Part shown: piece after piece, positions 4,274 to 28,522 of the stretch
How positions within the stretch are numbered: the stretch's first letter is position 1
How the letters are laid out: each line of letters opens with the position of its first letter
Assembly: GCA_019359315.1 (NCBI GenBank)
Contig: JAHHHO010000050.1
Span: 1-37,550, forward strand
Origin: Myxacorys californica WJT36-NPBG1
GTDB taxonomy: Bacteria > Cyanobacteriota > Cyanobacteriia > Leptolyngbyales > Leptolyngbyaceae
Reading direction: 5' to 3'
Length of the DNA stretch: 37,550 nucleotides
The notes under the pieces: generated by a model
Database searches by the model: none
Seen by the model: the letters and a program-made list of their open reading frames with translations, nothing else
Told to the model about the DNA's origin: nothing
Program-made: the position numbers and the translations under genes

Positions 4274-5608
4274 TTATCTATTTTGCGAGATTGATGCGAA
4301 TGAAGAGGGCAACGGTAGGGTCACTGTCACTGTTGTGCCTTGCCCTAATTCACTCTCAACTTGAATCTCTCCCCCATGCAGTTTGACGCACTGATGCACG
4401 ATCGCGAGTCCCAATCCTGTACCCGGAATAGTATCAACATTTTTGGCGCGGTGAAACGACTCAAACAAGCGGGGCATGTCCTCGGCGGGAATCCCGATGC
4501 CATGATCTTGCACGCGAAACAACACCCATGCTGAAGTGTCTTTAGCCGAGATAAAATCAACGGCTAACCGCACCTCATCTCCATTCGGAGAGTATTTAAT
4601 CGCATTACTAAGCAGATTCATAAGAATCAAACCTAGTAGATCTGGATCGAGTTCGACCTGAGTGCGACTAGCTTTATCAGCGTCTATAGAATGGCGGTCA
4701 TAGTCCAACACGAGCGATCGCTGCCGATGACCAACAGTTCCAAGCGGCTTTGAAAAATCGACTTGCAAATCGGATAAGAGACTGTGACAAAACTTTTCCA
4801 AATCAAACGAGGTCGGGTGAAACTCTAACGTGCTAGCGCTGGCTTTGCCTAAGGTCAGCAGATCTGTGAGAATAGCCGTCATTGAGCGCACCGCCTCTCG
4901 AATTTTTGAGAAGTAGCGCGATCGCCGTTCTTCTGTACAGTCTGTTCCTAACCGCTCTAGCAATTCAGCAGAAGTCAATACAATCGAAAGCGGTGTCCGA
5001 AACTCATGCGATGCGGTTGTGATGAAGCGTGACTTCAACTCATTCAATTCCCGCTCTTTCTCTAGGGCTTGCAGGGCGTCAGCTTCTGCCCGTTGTCGTT
5101 CTATGATCTCAGTTTGCAACCGTTGGTTGGCCAGTTCCAATTCTTGTGTCCGTTCTTGAACACGACGTTCGAGAACAGCGTTGAGCGCCTGAAGCGTGGT
5201 TTGAGCGTGGTGATGATCGAGGGCAATGTTGATCGCCGTGTAGAGTTCCGTCGGTTCAAACGGCTTCAGCAGATAGCCATAGGGGGAGGTCTGTTTTAAC
5301 TGTTGCAGCGTCGCGTCATCTGTGTAGCCTGTTAAGTAAATAACTGGAATATTCCAGCGTTCTTGAATGGTCTCAGCAACTTGAATGCCCGTCTGACTCC
5401 CTTTAAGCCGAATATCCATCAGAACTAGATCAGGTAGAGTCTCAGCGATCAGGGCGATCGCAGATTTGCCTGAGTCTGCTACTCCTGCCACGCAGAACTG
5501 AGCCGATTCTAGGCGCAGCCGAATGTTGAGAGCAACAACGCTCTCATCTTCAACAATGACAATTCTCTCTCCTACCATTGCGGAGTTTCCTGCTGAGTTG
5601 CGGTGCAT
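4274..5608 (-). CDS. Response-regulator/histidine-kinase fusion (REC-HisKA-HATPase)
   Basis: This is a soluble two-component signalling protein with the receiver at the N-terminus. Residues 15-130 form the receiver domain: acidic pocket E20/D21, phospho-acceptor D65 in LVLMDIRL, and K115 in GYLLKPFEP. A coiled coil of about residues 135-190 (RVQERTQELELANQRLQTEI) leads to a HisKA domain with H201 in TTASHEFRTPLS. The ATP-binding domain follows, with N-box MNLLSNAIKYSPNG (330-343), G1 box DHGIGIP (368-374) and G2 box GTGLGLAI (396-403). No membrane span or sensor domain is visible, so the receiver presumably takes phosphate from a separate kinase and tunes this one. The start is uncertain: ATG codons at 5608 and 5578 (MVGERIVIVED) both keep the receiver intact, and the second begins close to its first strand. 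No partner regulator lies beside it. Confidence 0.93.
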   Translation of the reverse strand: MHRNSAGNSAMVGERIVIVEDESVVALNIRLRLESAQFCVAGVADSGKSAIALIAETLPDLVLMDIRLKGSQTGIQVAETIQERWNIPVIYLTGYTDDATLQQLKQTSPYGYLLKPFEPTELYTAINIALDHHHAQTTLQALNAVLERRVQERTQELELANQRLQTEIIERQRAEADALQALEKERELNELKSRFITTASHEFRTPLSIVLTSAELLERLGTDCTEERRSRYFSKIREAVRSMTAILTDLLTLGKASASTLEFHPTSFDLEKFCHSLLSDLQVDFSKPLGTVGHRQRSLVLDYDRHSIDADKASRTQVELDPDLLGLILMNLLSNAIKYSPNGDEVRLAVDFISAKDTSAWVLFRVQDHGIGIPAEDMPRLFESFHRAKNVDTIPGTGLGLAIVHQCVKLHGGEIQVESELGQGTTVTVTLPLPSSFASISQNR

Positions 5609-18292: not shown

Positions 18293-19516
18293 TTGGCACT
18301 ACGGGTTGCTGTTGTTGGCGGCGGTCCTGCCGGGGCTTCTGCGGCAGAGACATTAGCGAAAGCAGGTATTGAAACTTACCTCATTGAACGCAAGTTAGAT
18401 AACGTCAAACCTTGTGGCGGCGCAATTCCGCTCTGCATGGTGGCAGAGTTTGACTTGCCAGAGAACATCATCGATCGCAAAGTCCGCAAGATGAAGATGA
18501 TTTCTCCGTCTAACGTGGAAGTCAATATCGGTTCGACGCTCAAAGATGACGAATACATCGGCATGTGCCGTCGCGAGATTTTGGATGGCTTTATGCGCGA
18601 TCGCGCGATTTCTCTCGGAGCCAAACTAATCAACGGCACGGTTCACAAGCTAGAAATCCCATCGAACGATACTGGAGCTTACACGCTGCATTACGCCGAT
18701 CACTCGGACGGCAGCTTAGAAGGCAGCGCTCAAACCCTGCAAGTCGATCTCGTGATTGGTGCAGACGGGGCGAATTCTCGCATTGCAAAGGCCATTGATG
18801 CTGGAGATTATCGCTACGCGATCGCCTTCCAAGAGCGCATCAGCCTGCCCGATGACAAGATGGCGTACTACGAAGACTTGGCAGAAATGTATGTCGGTGA
18901 CGACGTTTCGACCGATTTCTACGCCTGGGTTTTCCCAAAATACAACCACGTTGCTGTCGGAACTGGAACCATGTCGCCTAACAAGGCAGACATTAAGAAG
19001 CTCCAGGCGGGCATCCGGGCACGGGCGGCAAAGCGGCTAAGAGGCGGCAAAATCATCCGCGTCGAAGCGCATCCGATTCCTGAGCATCCTAGACCCCGGC
19101 GCGTTGTCGGTCGGGTTGCCCTTGTAGGAGATGCGGCTGGAACCGTTACTAAGTCGTCGGGAGAAGGAATCTATTTCGCGGCGAAGTCTGCTCGCATGTG
19201 TGCAGAAACGATCGTCGAATTCTCCGATCAAGGTCGTCGGATTCCCACGGAAGCGGATCTTAAGGTCTACCTGAAGCGGTGGGATAAGATGTACGGCATC
19301 ACCTATAAGGTGTTAGACATTCTGCAATCGGTGTTTTATCGTTCCGATGCAACCCGTGAGGCGTTTGTTGAAATGTGTGCGGATATCGATGTGCAGAAGC
19401 TGACGTTTGATAGCTATCTGTATAAGACGGTTGTTCCAGCGAATCCGTTGACTCAACTGAAGATTACGGCGAAGACAATTGGTAGCCTGATTCGAGGCAA
19501 TGCGTTAGCGCCCTAG
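18293..19516 (+). CDS. chlP: Geranylgeranyl reductase, TTG start
   Basis: ChlP reduces three double bonds of the geranylgeranyl group with NADPH to give the phytyl chain of chlorophyll and tocopherol; it is associated with the thylakoid membrane. The 407-residue protein opens with the dinucleotide-binding RVAVVGGGPAGASAAETLAKAG and the family signature ERKLDNVKPCGGAIPLCMV. FAD-binding GADGANSR is in the middle, then AHPIPEHPRPRRVVGRVALVGDAAGTVTKSSGEGIYFAAKSA. The C-terminal FDSYLYKTVVPANPLTQLK agrees with the cyanobacterial enzyme. The only suitable start is TTG at 18293: GGGAG lies seven bases before it, the protein then begins (M)ALRVAVVG as expected, and the nearest ATG (18279) is out of frame. 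Two hairpins with T-rich ends follow the gene. Confidence 0.96.
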   Translation: MALRVAVVGGGPAGASAAETLAKAGIETYLIERKLDNVKPCGGAIPLCMVAEFDLPENIIDRKVRKMKMISPSNVEVNIGSTLKDDEYIGMCRREILDGFMRDRAISLGAKLINGTVHKLEIPSNDTGAYTLHYADHSDGSLEGSAQTLQVDLVIGADGANSRIAKAIDAGDYRYAIAFQERISLPDDKMAYYEDLAEMYVGDDVSTDFYAWVFPKYNHVAVGTGTMSPNKADIKKLQAGIRARAAKRLRGGKIIRVEAHPIPEHPRPRRVVGRVALVGDAAGTVTKSSGEGIYFAAKSARMCAETIVEFSDQGRRIPTEADLKVYLKRWDKMYGITYKVLDILQSVFYRSDATREAFVEMCADIDVQKLTFDSYLYKTVVPANPLTQLKITAKTIGSLIRGNALAP

Positions 19517-21496: not shown

Positions 21497-24400
21497 ATGA
21501 ATAGGACTCTCTTCAATCCTGTGGTTGAACTGACACTCACCATGACTCAATACAAGCCAACGGATACTGTACCTCAAGTTATGAAAGAAGCTTTGCACCT
21601 TAAAGCTAGTGTCAATTCTGGACGAACGAGTCAGCAGATTAGGGCGGAAATTGAGGCAACCTTTGGTTTTGTGCCTCCCTTCTTTGACCCCGCAGAGTCC
21701 ACACCGCAGGTGCTAGAGAACCTATGGCAACAGACTCTCACTGCCTATGTTGACAATCCGTTGCCAGCTTTGTTTAAGGAGAAGCTGTCTGCTTATCTCT
21801 CGCGCTTCTGTGCCGTTCCTTACTGCATGATTTGCCATAGCTGCACGCTACGCCCCCTTGGGTTGACAGCACAAGCGGTACTGGAGTTGCTAGAATCTTC
21901 TCCTCCACTAGAGCAAGACATAGAGAAGCACTTTGCAGAGCTTGCCGAACAGCCGAGCCTGCCCGATAATTGGTCAGCATTAAGCTCAGCCCTTGAAGAT
22001 AGTCTTCTCTACTGTGCTATCTTTATCGCCTTAGAACGTGAGCAATCAGAACATTATCGTCATGAGCTACGCCGTCTCTTAGGCGTCGTGAACTATCAAC
22101 ATTTAACTACATTTATCGCTTACGTCAAAACCTGTCATGTTTGGGTAGAAGCTCATTCCGAAGTGGCGTATGAAGCAGATCAGCGGGTCATCGATAATTT
22201 TCAAGCATTGATAGACGACGAACCTGCTTTAGCTGACTTTTTCCGCGATTACCGTAGCAGAGTTAGACGCGAATCTCAAAGTCGCGTCGTACAGCTCGCG
22301 GAGCTTGCCGAACGCAATCGTCACGAGCAGGTGCTGCATCAGCAAATGGCGCAAGAGCGACTTGTGATGGAGATTTCTCAGCGCATCCGGCGATCGCTCG
22401 ATCTAGAAGAAATTCTCAGTACTACGGTTGCTGAAGTCAGACAGTTTCTGGAAGCCGATCGCGTGTTCATCTACCGCTTTGAACCCGATTGGAGCGGCAT
22501 CATCGCGGTAGAATCCGTCATTTCTGAATCTTTGTCGATCGAGGGAACCAAAATCAAGGACACCTTTTTTGTCCAACCTGCGACGCGCGAACTGTATCGC
22601 CAGGGTCGGATTCAAGCAATTTCCGACATCGATACCGAAAACCTATCCGACTGTCACCGGGATTTACTAGCTCGCCTCCAGGTAAGAGCAAATTTAGTTG
22701 TCCCGATTGTGCAAGGCGATCAGCTATGGGGCTTGCTTGTTGCCAACCACTGCTTAGAATCTAGGCAATGGCAAACTTTAGAGCTTAATTTGCTTCAGCA
22801 CCTAGCGACGCAGTTAGCGATCGCCATTCAACAATCTGAACTCTATCACCAAGTCCAAACTGAACTGAGCGAACGCCAGCGTTCGGAAGAGAAAATTCGC
22901 GAACAAGCCGTCCTCCTCGACGTGACAACCGATGCCATTTTGGTTCTCGACCTAAATGGCCAAATCTTGTTTTGGAATAAAAGCGCCGAACACCTATACG
23001 GTTGGTCAACCGCTGAAGCGCTAGCGATGAGTGCGCGGGCTCTGTTAGGGCAGACCCTTCCTCCTCAACTTGAGGAAATTCAGAAAACGGTGGTCGAAAC
23101 GGGTAGATGGCAGGGAGAGTTGCCTCAATTGACGAAAGATGGCAAAGAGATTTTGGTTGAAAGCCGTTGGACAGCCGTGCTGGAAGAGGGACAACTCAAA
23201 TCAATTCTGGTTGTGAATACAGACATTACCCAGAAGAAACAACTTGAACGGCAGTTTCTTCACGCCCAGCGCCTTGAAAGCTTGGGCACTTTGGCGGGCG
23301 GCATTGCCCATGACTTGAACAATATCTTGACGCCAATTCTCGCGATCTCTCAACTGCTACAGCTAAAATTGGGCGACATAGATGAGTCTACGCAACGGTT
23401 TCTGAAGATGCAGGAAACAAACGCTAGACGAGGAGCGGCATTGATCAATCAAGTCTTGTCGTTTGCACGTGGAGCCGAAGGCAAGCGGATCAAACTTCAA
23501 GTTCAACATCTGCTTCAAGAGATCAAGCAGATTATTGAGGGAACCTTTCCAAAATCGATCGATCTCCAGACCAACATCGAACCTAATCTTTGGATTACCT
23601 CAGCTGATGCAACTCAATTGCATCAAGTCCTAATGAATCTTTGCGTCAATGCTCGGGACGCTATGCCCGATGGCGGCACGCTGAGTATTTCTGCCAAAAA
23701 CCTTGTTCTAGATGAAACCTATGCTCAGATGAATCTTGATGCCCAAGCGGGTGCTTATATTGTCATTTCTGTTGCAGATACAGGAATCGGAATGCCTCCT
23801 GAAACCTTGCAGAGAATCTTCGAGCCATTCTTCACGACGAAGGAAGTGGGTAAAGGAACAGGATTAGGGCTTTCAACGGTGATTGGCATTATCAAAAATC
23901 ATGGAGGATTTGTGAATGCCTACAGTGAAGTGGGTCAAGGAACGGAGTTTAAGGTATATTTGCCAGCCATCCAAGGCTCAGAACTGAAACAAGTAGAAAC
24001 CTCCGAATTACCGCTAGGAGCTGGGGAGTTGGTTCTGGTTGTCGATGATGAAGCGACGATTCGTGAAATTACGAAAACATCGTTAGAGACATATAACTAC
24101 AGTGTGTTAGTCGCTAATGATGGAATCGACGCGATCGCAATGTACGCAGAACATAAGGATAACGTTGGCGTTGTATTAATGGACATGATGATGCCCAACA
24201 TGGCAGGTCCCGCCGCAATCAGCATTTTGAAACGGATGAACCCGTCGGTGAAGATTGTCGCTGTGAGCGGGCTGGCCTCGAGTGACAAAGTAAGGGCAGC
24301 GATGGAAGCCGGAGTGAGCGCATTTTTGTCTAAACCCTACACCGCCCAAGAATTATTAAAAACGCTCAACATCGTACTGAATTTAGAAACAGCGCCTTAA
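21497..24400 (+). CDS. Hybrid histidine kinase: AhpD-like domain, bilin-type GAF, PAS, kinase, receiver
   Basis: The 967-residue soluble protein has an unusual domain order. Residues about 40-225 look like an AhpD/carboxymuconolactone-decarboxylase domain with the redox motif C110-x-x-C113-H114 (VPYCMICHSC) and no membrane span. A helical stretch leads to a GAF domain (302-450) with YRFEPDWSGIIAVESV, DTFF at 355-358 and SDCHRDLL (C386-H387), then VRANLVVPI and WGLLVANHC. C-H at this place carries the bilin in cyanobacteriochromes; the second Cys motif (D-x-C-F) is replaced by DTFF. A PAS domain (about 470-580) follows, then HisKA with H605 (GGIAHDLNNI), an ATPase domain (N-box LMNLCVNARDAMPDGG, DTGIGMPP, GKGTGLGL) and a receiver with D896 (VVLMDMMMP) and K946. 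It may sense peroxide or redox state together with light. A second in-frame ATG lies at 21542. Confidence 0.93.
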   Translation: MNRTLFNPVVELTLTMTQYKPTDTVPQVMKEALHLKASVNSGRTSQQIRAEIEATFGFVPPFFDPAESTPQVLENLWQQTLTAYVDNPLPALFKEKLSAYLSRFCAVPYCMICHSCTLRPLGLTAQAVLELLESSPPLEQDIEKHFAELAEQPSLPDNWSALSSALEDSLLYCAIFIALEREQSEHYRHELRRLLGVVNYQHLTTFIAYVKTCHVWVEAHSEVAYEADQRVIDNFQALIDDEPALADFFRDYRSRVRRESQSRVVQLAELAERNRHEQVLHQQMAQERLVMEISQRIRRSLDLEEILSTTVAEVRQFLEADRVFIYRFEPDWSGIIAVESVISESLSIEGTKIKDTFFVQPATRELYRQGRIQAISDIDTENLSDCHRDLLARLQVRANLVVPIVQGDQLWGLLVANHCLESRQWQTLELNLLQHLATQLAIAIQQSELYHQVQTELSERQRSEEKIREQAVLLDVTTDAILVLDLNGQILFWNKSAEHLYGWSTAEALAMSARALLGQTLPPQLEEIQKTVVETGRWQGELPQLTKDGKEILVESRWTAVLEEGQLKSILVVNTDITQKKQLERQFLHAQRLESLGTLAGGIAHDLNNILTPILAISQLLQLKLGDIDESTQRFLKMQETNARRGAALINQVLSFARGAEGKRIKLQVQHLLQEIKQIIEGTFPKSIDLQTNIEPNLWITSADATQLHQVLMNLCVNARDAMPDGGTLSISAKNLVLDETYAQMNLDAQAGAYIVISVADTGIGMPPETLQRIFEPFFTTKEVGKGTGLGLSTVIGIIKNHGGFVNAYSEVGQGTEFKVYLPAIQGSELKQVETSELPLGAGELVLVVDDEATIREITKTSLETYNYSVLVANDGIDAIAMYAEHKDNVGVVLMDMMMPNMAGPAAISILKRMNPSVKIVAVSGLASSDKVRAAMEAGVSAFLSKPYTAQELLKTLNIVLNLETAP

Positions 24401-24538: not shown

Positions 24539-27500
24539 TTACTCAACACCCTCAATTCGATCTTCCACTTCTTGATATAACTCGCGGAGTTTATCAAGAT
24601 TCTCTTCGCTCGTCTCCCAATAGCCACGCCCATTCGCTTCTAGCAAGGTCGTCACCATCTTACGGAACGAGTTCGGATTGAGATCTAACAGACGCTTTTG
24701 CATTTCTTCATCTTTGACAAAGGTTTCATTCGCGTCTTCATAGATCCAGTTATCCACTGCGCCTGCCGTTGCCGACCAGCCCATTGTGTTGACCAATCGC
24801 TTCGAGAGTTCCCGAACGCCTTCGTATCCGTGAGACAACATGCCCTCATACCACTTGGGGTTCAAGAGCTTGGTTCGCGCGTCGAGTCGCACCGTTTCAG
24901 ACAATGTGCGAATTTGAGCGTTTGCTGTTGTCGTGTCTGCCATAAACGAGGCTGGAGTTTTACCGTCATCTCGCAAACTCGCGACGATTTTAGTCGGATC
25001 GGAGTCGTAGTAGTGAGAGACATCGGTGAGCGAGATTTCAGATGAATCCAAATTTTGGAAGGTGACATCTGCGGTCTTCAAGCTTTCGCGGAAGAGCGTC
25101 TCGTTTTGCTCCATCATCCCCGGATTATCAGACGAGAATGCGAACCCCTTGCGCGAGAGATACATGTTTTGCAGTTCCTCTTCGTTTTCCCAAGTGCCGT
25201 TCTCTACCGCCAAATTAACATTCGACGAGTAAGACCCGGATGCGTTGGAAAAAACGCGAGTTGCTGCTTGGCGCAGATTGATTCCCAGTTCATCGGCTTG
25301 CTTCATTGCGTGTTTGCGAACGAAGTTCATCTCTAAAGGCTCATCTGCTTCCGCCGCCATTTTCACAGCGCGATCGAGCAGGGCCATTTGGTTGATAAAC
25401 AAGTCACGAAACACACCAGAGCAGTTGACCACCACATCAATCCGCGGACGCCCTAACTCTTCGAGCGGAATCAGCTCGAGTTTGTTGATGCGTCCTAGCG
25501 AATCGGGTAGAGGTTTGACACCGACCATCCACAAAATTTGGGCGAGAGATTCGCCGTAAGTCTTGATATTGTCGGTTCCCCAAAGCACGCACGCGATCGT
25601 TTCCGGGTACGCGCCGCCGTTTTCGGCACACTGACGCGCAATCAAGCGATCGACCACGATTTTGGCAGATTTGACTGCCGCCGCCGTTGGGATAGACTGC
25701 GGATCAAGCGCATGAATGTTCTTACCAGTCGGCAACACATCCGGGTTCCGAATCGGATCGCCGCCAGGACCTGGTATTGTGTACTGCCCATCTAGCGCCA
25801 TCAGCAACGCGCCGAGTTCGTTATCGGCAACGACTTGCTTGAGACAGAATTGCAAGAATTCGATCAAGGGCTTGAGGAGTTCTTCATCTACTGCCTTGAA
25901 GCCGGACGCGTGAAGGGATTCAACCCAAGGCGCTTTTTTACCACCCAAGTTAAACAAGCTGGTCAGCATCGACATTTTCGATACGCGACCTTCTTCGTCT
26001 ACTTGAGATTGCACCATCGCCGCGACGGCAGCACGAGTGGCTTGAGTCACATCATTGAGAAGCTGAACGTCTGCGAGAACGCCAAGATCACTATTCTGGA
26101 AAATTTCGTCAATGTCGCGACCAATGCTATTGGCAATGATGCGCGGCAAACTGACAATGTTCTCTTCAGCGCGATCGAGACTGGCGATGTTGACGAGGGT
26201 TGCGATCGCTTCTTCCGCTGTCGGTGGTTTGCCAATCACATGCAATCCGCATGGCAATAGCCGCGATTCGATCTCCATCAATTTGATGTAAACCTTACCT
26301 ACGATCGTATCGCGTTCTTCCGACGTCAAATCTTTCGAGTCTTCTGGAAACTCAATGTCTTTGTCCAGATTACAAATTCGCGCCTTATCCATGATCGTGT
26401 CTACGATCTGCACGCCGCGACCCGAATCTTTTAGTGTTTGATAGGAGCCGACCAGTTCACTGAGTTCCTTCAACCCTTTGTAAAGTCCAGCGTTTTCTGC
26501 TGGAGGAGTCAGGTAACTAATGGTTTCTGCGTAAGAGCGACGCTTTGCGATCGTGGCTTCAGATGGATTGTTCGCCGCGTAGTAATACAGGTTGGGAATC
26601 GTACCGATCAAGCTGTCGGGAAAGCAGTCATCTGACATGCCGATCTGCTTACCTGGCATGAACTCCAGCGATCCATGCGTGCCAAAGTGCAGAACAGCGT
26701 CCGCTTTCCAGACCTTTTCTAGGTAGGTGTAGTAAGCGGCGAACCCGTGGTGAGGACTCGCCGATCGCGAGAACAACAAGCGCATCGGATCGCCTTCGTA
26801 GCCAAATGTTGGCTGCACGCCAATAAACACGTTACCGAATGCTTTTCCGTAGACTAAAAGATTTTGACCGTCGGTGTTGAGATGTCCTGGAGCCGGACCC
26901 CAAGATGGAATCAGCTTTTCGTGATAAGGCGTCAGTTCTTCGTACTCTGGAACCGACATTCGATAAGCAATGTTGAGTTCAGGACTGTTGTACTGAGCGC
27001 GGGCATCGTGAAGCACTTCTAGCATTAGCGCTTCTGCTGTTTCTGGCAAATCCTCTACGTCATAGCCGTTTTGCTTGAGTCCTTCCATCACTTTGTAGAT
27101 GGAACCGAACACATCGAGATAAGCCGCCGTTCCAACGTTGCCTTTATCAGGTGGAAAGCTGAAAACGGTAATGGCGACTCGCTTATGAAGTTTGGGCTTG
27201 TGTCGGAGATTTGCCCATTTCAAGGCCCGTTGCGCGATCGCTTCGATTCGATCTTGCAGCGCGACCGCTCTGCCTGTTGCTCCGTCCCGCCCAGACACGA
27301 TGATCGGCTCAATCGCCCCGTCCAACTCTGGCAACGCAATCTGTAGCGCTACTTGAATGGGGTGCAATCCCAGTTCGCTGTCTTGCCATTCCTCGGTTGT
27401 TTGAAACACTAACGGCAACGCCACCATATACGGACGGTTGAGCCGTTTTAGCGATTCAATCGCTTTCGGGTGATCTTGACGCGCTGGACCTCCAACTAGG

Positions 27501-28522
27501 GCAAACCCAGTCAGAGAAACGACGACATCTACGATCGCGGAGTCGGTTGAAATCGGGTCATAGAAAAACGCATCAACAGGCTTCGAGAAATCCAAGCCGC
27601 CTGCAAATACAGGAATGACTCGCGCTCCCATCGCTTCGATTTCTTGCACCATCGCCACATAGTGGGCATCATCCCCAGTCACTAAGTGCGTTCGTTGCAA
27701 GACGAGTCCTACCGTTGGCGCTAACGGATCTTTTAAGTCTGCTGAAATATCTTTTCTAGAATTAAACCAATTGAGATATTCCTTCAAATCTTCAAACATA
27801 CAGGGTGCAAGCGGATGCCAAATGCCTAAATCCGGATAAGTAACCGGATCTTGGTAAGTCTCACTCGCACCAACCTGCCCTTTGTAAACATACTTATCTG
27901 CCAGCATCAGCAGAAAGTTCTCTAGGTTTTCGGAGTTGCCGCCGAGCCAATATTGGAAGCTCAGCATAAAGTTGCGAGCGTCCTGCGCTTTATCCATGGG
28001 CAGATACTTCAGCACCTTGGGCAGCGTGTTGAGCAGCTTCAGCATCGCGTCTTGAAAACTCGACCCCGATTGCTCTTTGCGCTTCTTCATGAATTGCGCG
28101 ATCGCACTCTTCGACTGACCCAACTGAGCCATCGAAAAGCTGCCCATCTTGTTGAGGCGCATCACTTGCGGCATCGATGGAAACACCACCGCAACATCTA
28201 GGTTGTCGCGATGAGGCTCGACCGCCGCAACTAATTTCTCTGCCAAATCTTCTAAAAAGATCAGCGAGGCGATGAAAATGTTTGCTTCAGCCACATCGCG
28301 CTGGAAGTCTTCGTAGTTCTTAGCATCTCGAAGTTCTTCGATTAGATATCCGCTAATTTCAACCGCGATATGAGGGTGCTTTTCGTTAATCGATCGAACG
28401 GCGGCGGACAAAGCGCTTTGATACTGCGGCTCTAGCACGACATAGACCACCTTGAGTAAGGATCGTGCCCCTAGATTGTCAGGTGCAATGTGTCTTATGG
28501 TGGGCTTGACGTGGGTGAACAT
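24539..28522 (-). CDS. chlH: Magnesium chelatase subunit H
   Basis: ChlH is the large porphyrin-binding subunit of magnesium chelatase. With ChlI and ChlD it inserts Mg2+ into protoporphyrin IX, the first step of the chlorophyll branch. The 1327 residues match the usual cyanobacterial length of about 1330. Characteristic pieces are the N-terminal [38 protein letters not shown] near residue 270, [20 protein letters not shown] with its His pair near residue 610-630, [20 protein letters not shown], and [20 protein letters not shown] in the C-terminal third. AAGGAG at 28533-28538 (minus strand) precedes the ATG by ten bases and supports the start. No chlI, chlD or gun4 is in the window. It stands alone with a strong terminator after it. 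Confidence 0.98.

Follow-up and report, generated by a model that had tools for sequence, protein, structure and literature searches.

The window analysed here, a 37,550-nucleotide stretch of Myxacorys californica WJT36-NPBG1 DNA (host genome 5.97 Mb), contains a hybrid histidine kinase of 967 residues, encoded from an ATG start by an open reading frame (ORF) at 21497-24400 on the forward strand. The protein is composed of an AhpD-fold domain, GAF, PAS, HisKA, HATPase_c and a receiver, in this order. Pfam families match above their gathering cut-offs for GAF (residues 302-444), PAS (473-581), HisKA (596-661), HATPase_c (704-824) and Response_reg (846-957), and Pfam assigns nothing before residue 301. 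HisKA, HATPase_c and receiver, together with the likely phosphoacceptors H605 (in AHDLNN of HisKA) and D896 (in the receiver), characterise the protein as a hybrid histidine kinase. The following features are present:

21497-24400, forward strand: hybrid histidine kinase ORF, 967 residues (ORF and Pfam)
21614-22276, forward strand: candidate sensory domain of AhpD fold, approximately residues 40-260 (AlphaFold2 (AF2) model with a predicted local distance difference test score (pLDDT) of 91.5; Foldseek and VIA-align; TIGR01926 in relatives, not in the window's own sequence)
21809-21844, forward strand: cluster C105-x4-C110-x2-C113-H114-x-C116, with C110 and H114 at the AhpD Cys133 and His137 positions
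22013-22015, forward strand: C173, kept in 66 of 71 representatives
22133-22144, forward strand: C213-H214-x-W216 motif, among the best kept of the domain (C213 70/71, W216 71/71)
22250-22393, forward strand: predicted long signalling helix from the AhpD-fold domain to GAF, residues 252-299 (second AF2 model; low confidence at 264-266)
22400-22828, forward strand: cyanobacteriochrome-type GAF, residues 302-444 (Pfam, PDB sequence matches and structural matches)
22559-22570, forward strand: D355-T-F-F, at the place of DXCF but lacking its second Cys (alignment of GAFs)
22652-22657, forward strand: C386-H387, canonical bilin-attachment position (alignment of GAFs)
22775-22921, forward strand: predicted long helix from GAF to PAS, residues 427-475 (second AF2 model)
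22913-23239, forward strand: PAS domain (Pfam)
23282-23479, forward strand: HisKA with H605 as likely phosphoacceptor (Pfam and residue check)
23606-23968, forward strand: HATPase_c catalytic domain (Pfam)
24032-24367, forward strand: receiver with D896 as likely phosphoacceptor (Pfam and residue check)

A preliminary description of this ORF had named C110, C113, H114, C386, H387 and DTFF, all of which are present in the sequence, and had proposed a hybrid kinase with an AhpD-like and a cyanobacteriochrome-like module in one protein, in agreement with the Pfam domains and the predicted AhpD fold. Over the 758 residues read, the kinase copy of the same-genus relative G001 does not differ from the one in Myxacorys almedinensis (L013).

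For the N-terminal domain, Pfam returns no family from the single sequence (residues 27-262, E ≤ 10), and a PHROGs search of the region has no match. NCBIfam TIGR01926 ("peroxidase-related enzyme") is detected in 21 of the 59 members in the domain alignment (best E-value 1.2e-4), with no match to the window's own N-terminal sequence at E ≤ 1. The AF2 structure of residues 36-262, predicted from the 59-sequence alignment, has a pLDDT of 91.5 and a predicted TM score (pTM) of 0.89. VIA-align places 2prr_J (171 aligned residues) and 6k40_B (170) jointly first, both with Z 13.1 and a root mean square deviation of 4.0. All of the 12 best rows (Z 10.5 to 13.1) are AhpD-like: six are titled AhpD, alkyl hydroperoxide reductase, peroxidase-related or CMD, two are antioxidant defence proteins, two are debrominase Bmp8 entries, which we take to be AhpD-like, and two are entries titled PA0269 (2o4d and 2ijc). 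The former of these is AhpD-like according to PMC3141380. The first entry of another kind is a chain of the GATOR2 complex. Foldseek assigns a probability of 1.00 to AhpD-like structures, with a best E-value of 6.5e-3. Two sequences bridge the domain family to CMD: L086, a CMD protein with DUF3179 (domain profile 6.3e-11, Pfam CMD 9.3e-8), and L008, a CMD protein of 182 residues (domain profile 3.5e-11, Pfam CMD 8.7e-16). CMD is linked solely through these two; Pfam CMD (PF02627) is absent among the 18 families matched by 55 relatives at 1e-5, and matches one of the 59 domain sequences at E 0.17. At L086:1468-2823 a CMD/AhpD domain is thus fused to DUF3179, bridging ordinary CMD proteins and the family. 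Fold and sequence bridges together make membership of the AhpD/CMD superfamily well supported, as the preliminary description had claimed for this region, and the structure model that it proposed as a check yields AhpD-like best matches. The sequence would not place the domain among the AhpD peroxidases themselves.

The reason lies in the register of its cysteines. The AhpD relay comprises Glu118, Cys130, His132, Cys133 and His137 (PMC3141380). In a profile alignment to the Deinococcus radiodurans AhpD (6k40), Glu-x11-Cys-x2-Cys-x3-His falls on E95, V107, C110 and H114, i.e. the kinase domain reads E95-x11-V107-x2-C110-x3-H114 and does not contain the two-Cys relay E-x11-C-x2-C-x3-H. C110 takes the place of the second catalytic Cys; the first is absent because V107 occupies the Cys130 place. 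Column 107 holds V, I, A, L, T or R and in no case Cys (0 of 90 rows; 90 of 91 have a residue there). YC-x-x-CH with C110 and C113, previously read as the AhpD CxxC redox pair, is ruled out as such by this register and this column; C113 is an additional Cys relative to AhpD and is replaced in 7 of 71 representatives.

These 71 representatives (rows below 80% identity, query included; rows below 60 bits, i.e. L008, L086, L106, L109 and the second ORF in L021, excluded) keep W216 in 71, C213 and R103 in 70, C105 in 69, H114 and H214 in 68, E95 in 67, C173 in 66, C110 and C113 in 64 and C116 in 62 rows. Six of the nine Cys of the protein (C105, C110, C113, C116, C173 and C213) lie within residues 105-213, each kept in 62 to 70 of 71, and C105 and C213, neither of them named in the preliminary description, appear as the most constrained thiols. 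One of the six peptide patterns of the species-level scan was YCMICHSC, which biases retrieval toward the Cys motif. The profile searches are independent of that motif, although some of their rows are genes also retrieved by the patterns; the 57 rows from protein and profile searches, one of them a fragment lacking the counted Cys residues, display a similar pattern (C105 54, C110 50, C113 50, C116 47, C213 55). In both Armatimonadetes loci, L064 and L067, C113 and C116 are Ser.

The domain is not confined to Myxacorys. A scan of one genome per species retrieved 60 loci, by title 57 cyanobacterial, one from Archangium and two from Armatimonadetes. Whole-genome searches, all of whose counts include the centre genome, gave matches in 8 of 58 relatives (among them L008, an ordinary CMD protein), in 9 of 291 genomes sampled across the phylum (including the CMD-DUF3179 protein L086 and a degenerate copy, L085), in 25 of 145 genomes of the Nostoc foliaceum family (one a fragment of 78 residues), in 2 of 146 genomes of the Archangium phylum (one weak, 6.1e-4) and in 5 of 151 genomes from the phylum to which the Armatimonadetes locus L064 belongs (one weak, 5.9e-4). 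The Archangium copy (L062) is the sole strong match among the 146 genomes of its phylum. Its acquisition by horizontal transfer is suggested.

In 55 uncut relatives, i.e. the 60 plus-strand ORFs of the species-level scan minus five cut or short ones, the domain envelope begins no later than residue 51 of the open frame. "Uncut" denotes a frame that does not reach the end of its locus; L071 possesses the domain only from residue 91, and L053 stops inside the kinase. The outputs are diverse: Pfam, which replaced a motif-based tally since many loci are cut at their ends, detects HisKA in 41, HATPase in 41, receiver in 30, GAF in 26, GGDEF in 10, EAL in 7 and SpoIIE in 2. Armatimonadetes L064 has the AhpD-fold domain followed by PAS domains and a SpoIIE phosphatase. 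Because one constant front is joined to many outputs, the N-terminal domain would be a sensory input domain; as judged from these sequences it behaves as an undescribed modular one, found mostly in cyanobacteria and rarely in Archangium and Armatimonadetes. The architecture, earlier described from a single protein, is therefore no singular case with respect to the front domain, present at the head of 55 uncut relatives. None of the paper titles listed from one open-access library describes the combination of AhpD/CMD and cyanobacteriochrome, and prior work is possible.

The second module of the kinase is related to bilin-binding GAFs by Pfam and by PDB sequence and structure matches. Its closest sequence matches in PDB are PPHK (E 1.7e-61) and miRFP670nano (4.7e-43), and within the model of the sensory module it aligns with miRFP670nano at Z 20.9 (49% identity) and with PPHK at Z 19.4-19.6 (50-54%). 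The best 50 VIA-align rows (one per entry; 1000 chains aligned) consist of phytochromes, cyanobacteriochromes and derived fluorescent proteins. C386 is located at the canonical bilin-attachment position, where a helix begins in the model, and a Cys is found at its place in 24 of 25 other distinct GAF rows (28 matches minus the window copy L001, the duplicate L002 and L040, which ends before this place); the exception is Archangium L062, a weak match. The second Cys of DXCF is absent, the motif being DTFF (D355-F358), and 19 distinct relatives with a V/I-x-D-x-F-F pattern likewise have Phe at this place. Two positions before the Asp the window GAF has Ile353, and the same 19 relatives have Val (6) or Ile (13). 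Other cyanobacteriochromes, too, are devoid of the second Cys of DXCF. It is likewise absent in the NpR3784 and extended red/green lineages, and the former, with a conserved Val two before the Asp, is typically red/green (PMC11284453). The V/I-x-D-x-F-F pattern of the kinase GAF resembles this NpR3784 lineage.

The host genome has one Fe_bilin_red gene, found among 14 control genomes only in Synechococcus elongatus, and 34 matches to the kinase GAF, some of which are incomplete or lie in one and the same protein; the host is therefore likely to have bilin and other photoreceptors. The GAF is a single-Cys domain of cyanobacteriochrome type that most likely binds phycocyanobilin at C386 and photoconverts between red and green; the canonical Cys and missing second Cys stated earlier are upheld. 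That the GAF binds no bilin and the protein is no photoreceptor, an alternative independent of those discussed below for the N-terminal domain, is improbable: close relatives manage without any GAF, but the identity to bilin-bound structures amounts to 49-54%, all of the best 50 VIA-align rows are of phytochrome or cyanobacteriochrome type, and 24 of 25 rows keep C386.

Relatives without GAF occur within the same kinase lineage. In a tree of the PAS-kinase-receiver part of the query and 24 chosen relatives, the GAF-less L015, L017, L019 and L027 fall among GAF-bearing kinases. L015, L017 and L019 (Calothrix) are 196 residues shorter than the GAF-bearing L018 (Dulcicalothrix), with which they share 92% identity in the remaining 744 residues. 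Their junction is VKRE-FSERKK, that of L027 is AERRRT-EEKIREQ, and L027 groups with the GAF-bearing L021 (support 0.895). The two different junctions and this grouping suggest that the GAF was lost at least twice; support inside the group of L015, L017 and L019 ranges from 0.29 to 0.86. L019 and L027 originate from genomes titled complete and nearly complete. The GAF-bearing counterparts compared were L016, L018 and L021. In L047, L061 and L065 a PAS domain stands in the place of GAF within the same kinase lineage. The kinase therefore retains its AhpD-fold front when the light module goes, and on these comparisons the GAF is its replaceable part.

We favour, with belief and doubt in about equal measure, a Cys-based, probably redox-responsive AhpD-fold sensor that feeds the kinase through helices and has an optional light input. 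The kinase would be a cytosolic multi-input hybrid histidine kinase, whose first module has the AhpD fold, six conserved Cys and, of the AhpD proton relay, E95 and H114, but lacks the first catalytic Cys. Reversible oxidation of these thiols, among which C105 and C213 are the most constrained, to a disulfide or a sulfenate would alter the helical bundle. The signal would pass along helix 252-299 to GAF and along helix 427-475 to PAS and the kinase core, and would change both H605 autophosphorylation and phosphotransfer to D896. With bilin at C386 and red/green photoconversion, the GAF would most likely provide the optional second, light input. The AF2 model of the sensory module (pLDDT 82.7, pTM 0.45) contains the long helices between modules.

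Several points weigh against this reading. The pTM of 0.45 makes the relative placement of domains unreliable, for which reason only the helices are used here. Z values near 13 in helical proteins can reflect a mere common arrangement without kinship, and Foldseek has no match at E ≤ 0.001; the sequence bridges therefore matter. The first AhpD catalytic Cys is absent from the kinase domain, and in TTHA0727 a Ser in its place is read as lost peroxidase activity (PMC3141380). C110 is replaced in 7, C113 in 7, C116 in 9 and C173 in 5 of the 71 representatives, including otherwise well conserved relatives (C110L and C113F in L060; C113V and C116S in L083), so not every thiol is essential. In a small tree of the query, four PDB fragments, 15 family GAFs and own-genome GAFs (≥120 residues, ≥40 bits; some duplicates), the GAF is not placed firmly with PPHK and miRFP670nano (support 0.56). 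Finally, no redox gene was seen to recur near the kinase in 15 orthologous or in all 60 loci. For the family as a whole, our confidence is likewise evenly divided over the proposal of an undescribed bacterial sensory-domain family in which an AhpD fold has turned from an enzyme into a Cys-based receptor, a counterpart of Sestrin, common to kinases, cyclic-di-GMP enzymes and a SpoIIE phosphatase, and paired in this kinase with a light-sensing domain that was exchanged or lost in the course of evolution while the rest stayed intact.

The thiol model has two serious rivals, metal binding and a ligand of the Sestrin kind. A metal or Fe-S sensor, in which zinc, iron or an iron-sulfur cluster is coordinated by C105, C110, C113, C116 and C213 together with H114 and H214 and its loss or oxidation is the signal, is a minority reading; the tight and largely kept spacing C-x4-C-x2-C-H-x-C with the distant C-H pair fits it, but single ligands (C110, C113, C116) are replaced in several relatives such as L060 and L083, and we know of no metal-cluster sensor on an AhpD fold. 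The same minor weight is carried by a small-molecule receptor akin to Sestrin2, whose AhpD fold would bind a metabolite, the Cys being structural or tuning the pocket. Non-Cys residues (W216, R103, L101 and G57) are strongly kept, Sestrin2 is among the structural matches (Z 7.9, possibly a mere helical arrangement), and of the two AhpD-like domains in Sestrins one is antioxidant and the other binds leucine (PMC11429811); no ligand is indicated, however, and six conserved thiols would be superfluous for a plain pocket. That the kinase carries a working peroxidase or disulfide reductase of AhpD type is very improbable. E95, Y109, C110 and H114 do lie at the Glu118, His132, Cys133 and His137 places, with PA0269 likewise having Tyr at the His132 place (PMC3141380), but the Cys130 place is never Cys and 7 of 71 representatives have another residue for C110; with Val in place of the first catalytic Cys, and C105 and C213 as the best-kept thiols, activity as a standard AhpD peroxidase is unlikely. 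Covalent haem at C110-M-I-C113-H114 is hardly credible despite the literal CXXCH string, considering the AhpD-like predicted fold, the relatives that keep H114 with either Cys replaced, and the attachment of c-type haem outside the cytoplasm.

At the 15 orthologous loci, matches to window proteins beyond the kinase are limited to an argS homologue beside L024, an L024 ORF against the PutA region (29.5%) and a kinase match in L030 (27.9-31.5%). Among the 60 loci one neighbour cluster recurs in 22, probably a broad two-component superfamily, and every other cluster in at most 5; the first protein of the 22-locus cluster presumably is a membrane sensor kinase, which it resembles by eye. The window has a second two-component protein (receiver-HisKA-HATPase; 4274-5608, reverse strand), which does not adjoin the kinase, and two large ORFs which we take by eye to resemble magnesium chelatase subunit H (24539-28522, reverse strand) and geranylgeranyl reductase (18293-19516, forward strand). 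RNA structure around the start codon of the kinase was not detected (z -0.09).

If the favoured thiol-based reading is true, bacterial signalling gains a new input domain, and thiol (or metal) and light signals meet in one kinase as a concrete case; such a meeting would suit cyanobacteria, where light drives the redox state. The Calothrix and Dulcicalothrix kinases without and with GAF, 92% identical elsewhere, make the share of each input directly testable.

Among known systems, the N-terminal domain is closest to the peroxidase-related branch of AhpD/CMD (TIGR01926; 2prr, 2oyo, 6k40), sharing the all-helical fold, the spacing E-x11-x-x2-C-x3-H and, as in PA0269, a Tyr at the His132 place. 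It differs by Val/Ile for the first catalytic Cys, five further conserved Cys, its fusion ahead of signalling modules in the 55 uncut relatives, and similarity below Pfam CMD detection. PPHK (6oap, 6oaq, 6ob8), a multidomain dual-sensor histidine kinase of Leptolyngbya sp. JSC-1 with a green state absorbing at 562 nm (PMC11480761), is likewise multi-input with a cyanobacteriochrome GAF, 50-54% identical; it has a receiver before GAF, whereas the Myxacorys kinase has the AhpD-fold domain. With the NpR3784 lineage, which includes the parent of miRFP670nano (49% identity), the GAF has in common a single canonical Cys, no DXCF Cys and an aliphatic residue two before the Asp, in contrast to which stand Ile for Val, FF for YF, one extra residue before Y367 and a position in the tree that is not firm. 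Sestrins resemble the domain, by structural match alone (Z 7.9), in an AhpD fold that serves signalling and not solely an enzyme; they are eukaryotic, however, consist of two AhpD-like halves and act through GATOR2 (PMC11429811).

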